DNA of 64,000 bases from Treponema sp. (lineage in GTDB: Bacteria; Spirochaetota; Spirochaetia; Treponematales; Treponemataceae): positions 95,257-159,256 of the forward strand of contig JAGBIY010000051.1 in NCBI GenBank assembly GCA_017934745.1, read 5' to 3'. A program made the position numbers and the translations under genes. The notes under the pieces were generated by a model. It ran no database searches. It saw only the letters and a program-made list of their open reading frames with translations, and had not been told where the DNA came from. Below, in pieces: positions 60,583 through 63,466 of this stretch; the first letter of the stretch is position 1, and each line of letters begins with the position of its first letter.

Positions 60583-60620
60583 AAGAGCTGCCGATGAAAA
60601 ACGGCGGCTCTTATTTTTTT
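60583..60620 (+). terminator. Rho-independent terminator
   Basis: AAGAGCTGCCG (60583-60593) pairs with CGGCGGCTCTT (60602-60612) with one G-T pair, followed by seven T. It lies between the small exported protein and the phosphoesterase gene. Confidence 0.85.
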
Positions 60621-60650
60621 CCAAAACAAAACTCAAAGCGAACAAACAAA

Positions 60651-61631
60651 ATGAAAATAATCCCAGACGAAAAGATAAAAGAATTCGCATCATTTGTGGA
60701 CGCCCACGACTTTTTCTACATAATCGGACACAAGGAACCAGACGGAGACGCAGTTTTCAGCTGCCTGGCAATGGCGGACCTGATTGAGCGCAAGGGCAAA
60801 AAGCACCAGCTCCTCTCGGCAGGTCCGTTCAAGAGGACGGAAATAAAGCAAAAGGCAAATCTCTTCACGAATTCTCCAACAAAATTCCAGAACGCGGAAA
60901 AATCAAAGACCGCATTGATAATAATCGACTGCTCGGAATCATCGAGGTTCGGGGAAATCGATGGTGATTTGAGCGGTCTCGACACATACATAATCGACCA
61001 CCACAAAACATCGGAAGGCGGAGAGAACTGCATAATCGACCCGTCCTCCCCTGCCGCCGCATGCCTCGTGCAGCAACTCTACGAAAAAACGGTCGGCGAA
61101 ATTCCTCAGAATGTCGCCGAATACCTGTTCTTCGGACTATCTACGGACACGGGATACTTCCGGTTCCTGAACGAAAAGTCGGCGGAAGTTTTCAGGCAGG
61201 CGGCAAGACTCGTCGAGGCGGGGGCGAACCCACGCACCATATACGACGAGATGACCGCGGGAAAAGCCTACAGCACGAGAAAGCTCCTCGGACTCATGCT
61301 CGGCCGGGCTGAGAGAAAATTCGGGAACAAACTAATCGTGACTTACGAGACAATGGAAGACACGAAAAAGCTAGGCCAGGAAGGACGCGACAGCGATGCG
61401 CTCTACTCGCTGCTTCTTTCGGTGGAGGACGTGGAGGCGGTCCTCTTCGTCAGACAGGACACGGAAAAAACATGCACGGCCGGCTTCAGATCGCGCGACA
61501 AAGTGGACGTGAGCGCGATTGCCGCGAAATTCGGCGGCGGCGGACACAAGAACGCGGCCGGATTGAGCATAGAGGGAAAACTCGACAGCGTAATCCCAAT
61601 GCTCTGCGCAGAATTCAAAAAAATTTTTTGA
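60651..61631 (+). CDS. DHH/DHHA1 phosphoesterase (NrnA / DhhP-like)
   Basis: The 326 residues carry GHKEPDGDAVFSCLAMADL (DHH motif I), ALIIIDCSESSRFGEI (motif II), YIIDHHKTSEGG (motif III) and the DHHA1 end GGGGHKNAAG. Stand-alone enzymes of this type degrade nano-RNA and pAp (NrnA) or, in Borrelia, c-di-AMP (DhhP). With cdaA in the same window, a c-di-AMP or pApA hydrolase role is attractive. The start is ATG 60651 (MKIIPDEK): the next in-frame ATG upstream (60594) lies inside the terminator hairpin just before, so it cannot be used. A terminator follows. Confidence 0.85.
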   Translation: MKIIPDEKIKEFASFVDAHDFFYIIGHKEPDGDAVFSCLAMADLIERKGKKHQLLSAGPFKRTEIKQKANLFTNSPTKFQNAEKSKTALIIIDCSESSRFGEIDGDLSGLDTYIIDHHKTSEGGENCIIDPSSPAAACLVQQLYEKTVGEIPQNVAEYLFFGLSTDTGYFRFLNEKSAEVFRQAARLVEAGANPRTIYDEMTAGKAYSTRKLLGLMLGRAERKFGNKLIVTYETMEDTKKLGQEGRDSDALYSLLLSVEDVEAVLFVRQDTEKTCTAGFRSRDKVDVSAIAAKFGGGGHKNAAGLSIEGKLDSVIPMLCAEFKKIF

Positions 61632-61680
61632 ATTTTTTTTACGGATTTTCTTAATGAAAACTTAAACAAAAAGCAAAAAA

Positions 61681-61717
61681 CTTCACCGAACATCCCAAAT
61701 TCGGTGAAGTTTTTTTT
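61681..61717. terminator. Bidirectional hairpin terminator
   Basis: CTTCACCGAA (61681-61690) pairs with TTCGGTGAAG (61700-61709), followed by eight T and preceded by an A-run. It ends the phosphoesterase gene transcript. Confidence 0.85.
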
Positions 61718-61820
61718 ATGTTTTTGGAGATTTTCGCGTTTTGCAAAGTGTTATTGAGAATTTTTCGCAACTACAACATCTTTTCCGGCAAAAAAACGCA
61801 AAATCTCCATTTTTTCCATA

Positions 61821-61836
61821 TGGCACGGAATTTGCT
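61821..61836 (+). promoter_or_regulatory. Near-perfect sigma-54 (-24/-12) promoter
   Basis: TGGCACG at 61821-61827 and TTGCT at 61832-61836 match the sigma-54 consensus TGGCACG-N4-TTGCW at all key bases, with the GG and GC pairs 12 bp apart. Transcription would start near 61847, 24 bp before the start codon, leaving just enough room for the CGGAGA ribosome site. It is the only such match I noticed in the window. Confidence 0.8.
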
Positions 61837-61870
61837 TGCATAAATGTATCTAAAATACGGAGATGCACAA

Positions 61871-62797
61871 ATGAAAAAGTTCGAGGTAAACGAAATTCCA
61901 CAGCTGTTGGAGTCAAGGGAAATCACCCAGAATGAGGCGACGGAGCTGCTTTGGGTCGACATCTATTTCAATCGGGAGAAATACAACCTGAAAGAACTGG
62001 ACGAGGACGACATAAGCGACTTTCTGCTCACATACAGGAGACGTTTCCCAAACATCATGAGAAAATACGACAAGAGAAAGGCAGACTTCACGACCTTCAT
62101 GAGAAGCTGCATGATGCAGTTCAAGTCAAGCTGGAACAGGAAAAGGGCGAAAGCGTGGACGGAATCAATGAGCGTTGAAAACTCAATGAGGAAAAGCGGC
62201 GACACCACCGATTTCAGCTTCGAAGAAGAAACCATAGACGCCATGGAGCGCAAGGCAAACGCAAAAAACGGGAAAGAGGAGCGGCAGGCCGAAGACAAGC
62301 GGAAAGAGGAGCGGGAAGTCCGGGAGACGGCGCTCGTCCTCGCGCTCAAATCGTGCCGGTACATTGACGACTCGATGGTCGCGAAACTCAGCAAATTCAC
62401 GAAGAAGAACGAGGAGGACCTCCACAAAATCATCGACGGGCTCAAGACCACAATGGAAAAGAAAGAGAGAATACAGAATTTGATGATAATGAGGAGGAAC
62501 AAGTCGTTCTTCAAAAAGAGGAAACTCAACGCCGAAATGGAACACCTCGAAGAGGACTGCGGAGAATACAAAAAGGTAAAGAGCCTCTATGAAAACCAGC
62601 TCCGCTCGTGGAAACGGACGAACGAGACTCTCACGCACAGGTACGTAATGTCGCCCAAAAATTCAGAGATAGCGAGAATAATGGGAATCTCGATACGGAA
62701 AGTCTACTACTGCATCTCGCACGCGAAAGACGAGGAGAAAATGCGGCTGTTCCAGCAGATGTTCAGGCAGGGAATGGAAGAGAGCGCGGAGGAATGA
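61871..62797 (+). CDS. Sigma-70-like protein (region 2-like and region 4-like parts)
   Basis: The 308-residue soluble protein has an N-terminal segment (about 25-95) resembling a sigma region 2 helix bundle, with LLWVDIYFNREKYNL, then FNIMRKYDKRKADFTTFMRSCMMQFKSSW. A charged, flexible middle of about 120 residues follows. The C-terminal part holds a helix-turn-helix, NSEIARIMGISIRKVYYCISHA, like sigma region 4.2. Similarity is weak, and it could also be a phage-type or anti-sigma regulator. It is preceded by a sigma-54 promoter; the start ATG at 61871 follows the predicted transcript start. The HAM1 gene starts only 33 bp downstream, so the two are probably co-transcribed. Confidence 0.55.
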   Translation: MKKFEVNEIPQLLESREITQNEATELLWVDIYFNREKYNLKELDEDDISDFLLTYRRRFPNIMRKYDKRKADFTTFMRSCMMQFKSSWNRKRAKAWTESMSVENSMRKSGDTTDFSFEEETIDAMERKANAKNGKEERQAEDKRKEEREVRETALVLALKSCRYIDDSMVAKLSKFTKKNEEDLHKIIDGLKTTMEKKERIQNLMIMRRNKSFFKKRKLNAEMEHLEEDCGEYKKVKSLYENQLRSWKRTNETLTHRYVMSPKNSEIARIMGISIRKVYYCISHAKDEEKMRLFQQMFRQGMEESAEE

Positions 62798-62830
62798 GGT
62801 GCCGTGGCTAATTTCAAAAAAAAGGATATG

Positions 62831-63466
62831 ATGAAAAACATGAAACTATATTTGGCAACAGGAAACGAACACAAGAGAATCGAAATGCAGCAGATTCTGC
62901 CGGAATTTGAAATTTTGATTCCTAAAGACGAAGGAATAGAATTCGACCCGGCCGAAACAGGCTCGTCATTCTACGAGAACAGCATGATAAAGGCTAAAGC
63001 ACTTTGGGACATCGTACACGCGCCGGTGATAGCCGACGATTCGGGAATTTGCGTGGACGCGTTGGGAGGCGCGCCCGGCATATTCACGTCGCGCTACGCA
63101 GGCCCGCAGTACATGCATGGACGACCGGACGGCAAGAAAATTTCACAGGATGAACAGAACAGGTTCCTCATAGAGCAGCTCAACGACACGAAATCAGGGA
63201 ACAGAGCGTGCCACTACACCTGCTCCATCGTTCTGATGCTCACTCCCGACAGGTTCTTCGTCGCTCAGGAGACGTTCGAGGGCACCCTCATAGAGTCCAT
63301 AGACAAGCAGGCGGGGTCAGGCGGATTCGGATACGACCCAATCGTGTTCCTTCCCGAATACGGAAAGACAGTTGCGGAAATTTCGGCCGACGAAAAAAAC
63401 AGGATTTCACACCGCGGAAAGGCTGTAAAAGTGATAAAGAACATCCTTTCGGCAATTTTTGCATAA
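62831..63466 (+). CDS. Non-canonical purine NTP pyrophosphatase (RdgB/HAM1)
   Basis: The enzyme hydrolyses dITP, dXTP and related nucleotides to monophosphates, keeping them out of DNA. The 211 residues contain KLYLATGNEHKRIEMQQIL at the N-terminus and FYENSMIKAKAL, then APVIADDSGICVDALGGAPGIFTSRYAG and, near the end, GGFGYDPIVFLPEYGKTVAEIS, all typical. The start is uncertain: ATG 62831 has AAGGA 4-5 bp upstream and is preferred, but a GTG at 62804 with GAGGT is possible. It is probably transcribed from the sigma-54 promoter with the sigma-like gene. Confidence 0.9.
   Translation: MKNMKLYLATGNEHKRIEMQQILPEFEILIPKDEGIEFDPAETGSSFYENSMIKAKALWDIVHAPVIADDSGICVDALGGAPGIFTSRYAGPQYMHGRPDGKKISQDEQNRFLIEQLNDTKSGNRACHYTCSIVLMLTPDRFFVAQETFEGTLIESIDKQAGSGGFGYDPIVFLPEYGKTVAEISADEKNRISHRGKAVKVIKNILSAIFA

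Follow-up and report, generated by a model that had tools for sequence, protein, structure and literature searches.

A divergent sigma-70-like protein predicted to be under sigma-54 control in Treponema and across the Spirochaetia

To our knowledge, the RpoN-RpoS circuit of Borrelia is the best-studied sigma-54 circuit in spirochetes. In the Rrp2-RpoN-RpoS pathway of Borrelia burgdorferi, sigma-54 and an NtrC-type activator transcribe a gene of the sigma-70 family (PMC3037356; PMC12655853; statements on published work refer here to the available portions of each source), and an EbpA-sigma-54 pathway has been described in Leptospira (PMC12655853). For the treponemes, Rrp2 of Treponema denticola (the Hpk2/Rrp2 system) is presented as a predicted but unstudied sigma-54 enhancer-binding protein (PMC12070737), and the flagellin promoters of that species are attributed to sigma-28 and sigma-70 (PMC9481697). 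A survey of 1,414 organisms ties sigma subunit genes (COG0568 and COG1191) to sigma-54, together with a heat shock cluster that includes IbpA (PMC12316311), and, for sigma genes under sigma-54, Francke (2011) names sigma-S of Borrelia and sigma-32 of enterobacteria (PMC3162934). Here we describe a gene of Treponema sp., located at 61871..62797 on the plus strand of a 64,000-nucleotide stretch of contig JAGBIY010000051.1 (the window, in which all coordinates are given unless another contig or locus is named). Its product, a protein of 308 amino acids with the working name X, in our judgement quite probably belongs to the sigma-70 superfamily as a divergent member and has a gene that is transcribed under sigma-54. 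An initial annotation had proposed such control of one sigma-type factor by another, and our computational follow-up supports it as a predicted cascade, based upon a conserved promoter, the presence of rpoN and an activator, and homology to sigma factors. We found no literature on a sigma-like protein driven by sigma-54 in treponemes, or in any Spirochaetia other than Borrelia, in a search of titles and abstract openings that left subscription journals mostly outside and is no proof of novelty.

The predicted promoter of X and its conservation

The sequence ahead of X on the plus strand reads TGGCACG (61821-61827), four bases (GAAT) and TTGCT (61832-61836), and contains the core TGGCAC-N5-TTGC with the GG-N10-GC spacing of a sigma-54 dependent promoter of the -24/-12 type. 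What had been annotated as near-consensus is an exact match at 61821-61836. No other place in the window, whichever strand is read, fits TGGCACGN4TTGCW exactly, and three sites there carry two mismatches. Promoter geometry, counting about 12 bases past the GC of the -12 box, predicts a transcription start near 61847 and hence reproduces the distance of 24 bp to the ATG at 61871 that was first annotated. A ribosome binding site (GGAG, plus strand) is read at 61859..61862, and the stop codon ends at 62797. There is a second in-frame ATG at 61844, which precedes the predicted transcription start and is probably unused.

Conservation of the promoter was assessed in 125 loci of the order (from 220 matching genomes) and 40 loci of the class (from 128). 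A site was counted if it kept GG-N10-GC with no more than two mismatches in 12 between -250 and +40 of the estimated start. Ten second copies of earlier loci (L032-L038, L040, L043 and L048) were dropped before counting, a broken orthologue (L006, in G028) and L144 (in G076) were left out of the 125, and the loci were the higher-scoring ones in the lists, such that low-scoring members of the families labelled f3 to f5 are under-represented. The site is present in 57 of the 68 loci of the own genus and in 18 of 29 from other genera of the same family; elsewhere in the order it was found in 6/7 loci of f3, 1/2 of f4, 0/1 of f2 (three mismatches there) and 1/18 of f5. Windows of the same length taken elsewhere in the 125 loci, which are mostly coding, gave 2 sites in 1494, and the opposite strand of the tested windows gave none in 125. 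Beyond the order, the 40 loci represent 31 further families of the class, and the site precedes X orthologues in 30 of them, as opposed to 4/388 control windows and 0/40 opposite strands. In the genus as in these families, the site lies mostly 20 to 115 bases ahead of the estimated start. Among individual treponemes, the T. bryantii B25 locus has the site with one mismatch and T. socranskii with two, T. bryantii XBD1002 has none, and genus g21, presumed to hold T. denticola, has it in one of seven loci. This conservation, which had been suggested as a check and proved to lie far above the controls, is, as far as sequence can tell, strong evidence for a promoter at 61821-61836.

We regard it as extremely improbable that the motif is a chance occurrence, or is read by another factor, with X being transcribed from an unrelated promoter. 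This idea does draw on several observations. Sites with one mismatch or none are not commoner in the own genome than matches to a reversed-pattern control (12 against 26), and single weak sites are therefore noise that means nothing alone; 10 of the 68 own-genus loci lack a site even at three mismatches (among them L049, with 132 searchable bases); and 17 of the 18 f5 loci lack one at two. Chance would nevertheless have to account for retention in 23 of the 31 other families, each with at least one site, and in most of the genus, at the control rates given above, as well as for 27 exact sites in eight related genomes compared with 4 for the reversed pattern.

The f5 family is a case of its own. 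Its X orthologues (L117-L123, L125-L129, L131-L135 and L138) mostly lack the sigma-54 site although all 18 genomes with tested loci have an rpoN match; such matches occur in 235 of the 242 genomes of the order. To judge from these patterns, f5 appears to represent a natural rewiring.

Sigma-70-family features of X

An AlphaFold model of X (pLDDT, the predicted local distance difference test, 87.5) divides the protein into three parts. The N-terminal residues 1-108 (61871..62194, plus strand) adopt a modelled fold that resembles sigma region 2, and when they are compared with known structures 38 sigma factor rows stand above the first unrelated one, in agreement with the region 2-like stretch of the initial annotation and at odds with an unrelated fold. 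The C-terminal residues 262-286 (62654..62728, plus strand; helices 264-271 and 275-285) form a helix-turn-helix like that of sigma region 4.2. Between these elements lie helices spanning residues 124-256, which include, directly ahead of the helix-turn-helix, an inserted antiparallel hairpin at 181-256 (62411..62638, plus strand; helices 181-224 and 231-256) whose neighbours in the structure comparison are coiled coils. The full-length model found no Foldseek match at E up to 0.001 in the PDB, and a viral fold library gave no match at that threshold either. In the VIA comparison of the full-length model with the PDB, four of the 50 rows extend over the N-terminus, all of them sigma-E region 2, and the remainder are mainly coiled coils.

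The sigma homology of X rests on its class-wide relatives, since it is these that match the NCBIfam model TIGR02937 (sigma70-ECF) and sigma factor chains of the PDB. At E up to 0.1, TIGR02937 matches 34 of 41 class-wide sequences, the lowest E being 4.1e-11, and most of the models ranked after it are sigma models too; Pfam Sigma70_r4_2 matches 18 of the 41. When ten orthologues were searched singly, nine matched TIGR02937, and in seven the alignment starts at position 2-4 of the 165-position profile and ends at 159-163; the highest score, 42.8 bits, is just under the cut-off of 42.9. Searched with the class profile, the PDB gave 31 rows, of which the top 11 are sigma factor chains (E 0.0022 to 0.12), and there is a region-2 match to 6dxo at E 0.23. 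The class consensus at the C-terminal helix-turn-helix reads IAxVLGIPKGTVDSGL, and its profile finds sigma region 4 in the PDB. Alignment by hhalign with six sigma factors of the own genome places region 2 on residues 9-84 (E 0.0078) and 18-86 (E 0.0017) of X, and region 4.2 on residues 263-290 (E 0.01 and 0.0019); these are weak matches, with probabilities of 4-15 percent. The region 2-like and region 4-like stretches claimed in the initial annotation are real, but in X alone they are weakly detectable; the region 4.2 helix-turn-helix of the sigma-70 superfamily is recognised through the orthologues.

Several results weigh against a sigma factor identity. X alone scores below every family cut-off: its only relevant Pfam matches are Sigma70_r3 (E 0.014) and, at residues 252-286, Sigma70_r4_2 (15.7 bits against a cut-off of 25.7; E 0.012), and its search of NCBIfam gave nothing useful, neither TIGR02937 nor a group 2 sigma model being matched. 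Members from the own genus match helix-turn-helix families of several kinds and give an ambiguous picture. Order-wide members match Sigma70_r4_2 in 9/34 and Sigma70_r2 in 6/34 (E up to 1), and HTH_36 down to 1.1e-6 in 3/34. LuxR-type and homeobox chains, with no sigma factor among them, were what own-genus profiles returned from the PDB, a lead set aside because the class-wide alignment did find sigma. Results of this kind would fit an ordinary DNA-binding regulator built from a helix-turn-helix and a coiled coil, its likeness to region 2 being no more than a common four-helix arrangement. We consider this very improbable, given that sigma models dominate the class-wide matches and that the region-2 comparison is headed by so long a series of sigma factors before any unrelated protein.

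The main rival is of a different nature. PhyR, which contains a sigma-like domain, is a precedent for sigma-like proteins that act as adaptors or decoys, and the X gene could be sigma-54 dependent and yet encode such a protein, binding an anti-sigma factor, another sigma factor or DNA. The long coiled-coil insert, the fast divergence and the weak family scores of X all lean this way; Pfam PhyR_sigma-like matches two own-genus members among 29, with E 0.013 at best; and co-regulation with a canonical sigma gene, described below, would suit a partner role. A pure decoy, however, would need neither region 2 nor a DNA-binding region 4.2, and both are kept class-wide, with TIGR02937 aligning over the two of them. 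We therefore think an adaptor or decoy unlikely; X is probably a sigma-70-family factor that is divergent and carries a coiled-coil insert.

Gene neighbourhood, sigma-54 machinery and further candidate targets

A protein search detected relatives of X in 43 of 59 genomes; within the genus, the own genome counted, 35 of 36 have one. With the X profile, matches were obtained in 220 of the 242 genomes from the order and in 128 of the 148 from the Spirochaetia. The 20 genomes in which the profile found no match are all 11 of family f24 (1.0-1.8 Mb), G061 (1.1 Mb) and eight more from various families; f24 is presumably the Borreliaceae and G061 presumably T. pallidum. X appears to be single-copy in most genomes across the class. 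Identity to the window protein drops to 13-19 percent at class level, and orthology at this low identity is backed by the gene order DHH-X-HAM1. HAM1 is the next gene downstream on the same strand in 58/68 loci of the own genus, 27/29 of the rest of the family, 6/7 of f3, 1/1 of f2, 2/2 of f4 and 0/18 of f5, and the DHH gene lies upstream in 40/68, 16/29, 7/7, 1/1, 2/2 and 10/18, respectively; among the 40 class loci, 29 have HAM1 downstream and 21 have DHH upstream. The orthologue in G028 (C4:74859-75762) is broken by stop codons across two frames and is either decayed or an assembly error.

At the locus itself, the HAM1/RdgB nucleotide pyrophosphatase (62804..63466, plus strand; Ham1p_like PF01725, 170.8 bits) has its ATG at 62831, 33 bp beyond the X stop as first annotated, and is a possible second gene of the transcript. 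It is followed by a frame that reads like flagellin in translation (no profile search was made) and runs off the window end. Upstream of the promoter is the gene for a DHH-family phosphoesterase (60594-61631), and with these two neighbours there is no anti-sigma gene adjoining X. A hairpin seen by eye at 61679-61717 (AACTTCACCGAA...TTCGGTGAAG, followed by a T run) is likely to be the terminator of the DHH gene, parting it from the sigma-54 unit. An inverted repeat at 61726-61808 (GGAGATTTTCGCGTT / AACGCAAAATCTCC, the first arm having one extra base) is a candidate activator site. Across 85 upstream regions there is no common perfect dyad with arms of 5-7 bp and a gap of up to 14; dyads of 7 bp are in excess (47 against a shuffle mean of 17.6) and are taken as putative terminators.

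The initial annotation had made its proposal depend upon rpoN, and the own genome yields a single rpoN match, in which the three sigma-54 domains (AID, CBD and DBD) are all present. It also has eight matches of the sigma-54 activator type, six of them weak (20-32 bits). One, L073 on contig C12, is a canonical NtrC-type activator with a receiver, an AAA domain and a Fis helix-turn-helix (REC-Sigma54_activat-HTH_8), and the genome thus holds both rpoN and an enhancer-binding protein. Another locus (L074, 1318-2217) encodes a 300-residue activator-like AAA protein in which Pfam shows no receiver or helix-turn-helix. Active sigma-54 activators carry the loop motif GAFTGA, which here reads GAFTDA, and this protein is possibly unable to activate. 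AtcR was considered as the activator and dropped, as it carries a LytTR domain and Rrp2 is the predicted sigma-54 activator (PMC12070737).

Exact consensus matches number four in the 3.58-Mb own genome, and two precede sigma-type genes. Apart from the X promoter these are C22:41587, identical to the X site over all 16 bases and 52 bp ahead of the ATG of an RpoD/RpoS-type sigma gene of 276 residues; C68:62035, which precedes an Hsp20 gene; and C45:125459, within a long open frame. The C22 gene (L061, 1501-2383) adjoins a divergent frame that, by eye, reads like groES, and among the seven Sigma70_r2 genes that Pfam finds in the own genome it alone has an exact site. The loci examined for it came from 30 of 39 genomes, and in 29 of these 30 own-genus loci a site with at most two mismatches is present. 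In L064, on the minus strand, an exact site (1516-1501) precedes a small heat shock gene of the Hsp20 type (1428-988), with the inverted repeat TGTCAG-N8-CTGACA between the site and the start codon; Hsp20 also stands behind an exact site in G063, G190 and G052.

The 27 exact sites of the eight relatives include eight before an X orthologue, five before a sigma-70-family gene and three before Hsp20 (16/27). The remaining 11 are elsewhere, nine of them within open frames of more than 150 codons. Seven of these genomes had been preselected for an exact X site, which makes G052, from another family, the one blind test, and there an exact site was found before X and also before Hsp20. Four genomes (G209, G204, G001 and G003) have just two exact sites each, one of which is before X. 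A second sigma paralogue, found behind exact sites in three relatives (L217, L218 and L220; L084 in the own genome), groups with RpoD/SigA-RpoS models; an RpoH-like identity for it was wrong, as NCBIfam ranks RpoD/SigA and RpoS above RpoH.

Taken together, these data are consistent with the following scheme, in which we infer the activity of the promoter and the choice of activator. A signal received by a histidine kinase would lead to phosphorylation of the NtrC-type activator encoded on C12, which would let sigma-54 polymerase open the promoter at 61821-61836 such that X, and perhaps HAM1 as well, is made. The region-2 domain of X would then bind core polymerase and, by reading promoters of putative target genes through region 2 and the C-terminal region-4.2 helix-turn-helix, X would redirect it, and the coiled-coil hairpin may serve regulation or partner binding. 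The activator and sigma-54 polymerase would transcribe X, the RpoD/RpoS-type factor and Hsp20 together. Because the same circuit would drive the RpoD/RpoS-type gene and Hsp20, sigma-54 is predicted to stand above a small sigma network of the stress type.

Comparison with known systems

The components of this circuit are of known kinds. What is new, within the literature searched, is the X family with its insert, the sigma-54 promoter found across the class and the grouping of several targets in one circuit. Extracytoplasmic function (ECF) sigma factors are about 190 residues long in all, with a short linker between region 2 and region 4, and commonly, though not universally, have an anti-sigma gene beside them. 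Like these group 4 members of the sigma-70 family (TIGR02937; sigma-E of E. coli, SigW), X has the region 2 fold and a region 4.2 helix-turn-helix. Unlike them, it has 308 residues, a long helical hairpin between the two, no adjoining anti-sigma gene and a conserved sigma-54 promoter upstream. We do not file X as a canonical group 4 ECF factor because of its Sigma70_r4_2 score, its lack of a TIGR02937 match and the failure of even the best orthologue to reach the cut-off of that model.

The activator on C12, with its receiver-AAA-Fis helix-turn-helix make-up, may be of one kind with Rrp2 of T. denticola, the predicted sigma-54 enhancer-binding protein; the available portion of the report on Rrp2 names no target (PMC12070737). 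For the Spirochaetia, the accessible part of the sigma-54 survey gives nitrogen fixation genes, a protease COG, transposases and ATPases, and the X family is not named there (PMC12316311).

The closest comparison is with Borrelia. As in its RpoN-RpoS circuit, the treponeme has a sigma gene of the RpoD/RpoS type behind an exact sigma-54 site. X itself is not of the rpoS type (group 2). Its family is a distinct one that neither Pfam nor NCBIfam names, and it has no match in any of the 11 genomes presumed to be Borreliaceae. It is conceivable, and we put this forward tentatively, at somewhat short of even chances, that X is an ancestral sigma-54 target of the Spirochaetia, that sigma-54 has switched a sigma network (X, the RpoD/RpoS-type factor, in some relatives a second such factor, and Hsp20) since early in the class, and that the Borrelia circuit is a reduced remnant left after loss of X. 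If so, control of sigma-type factors by sigma-54 would be ancient and general among Spirochaetia, what rpoN does in treponemes could be tested directly, and a hypothetical protein widespread in the class would gain a role. Borrelia and T. pallidum would then be the exceptions, each having lost one arm of the circuit.
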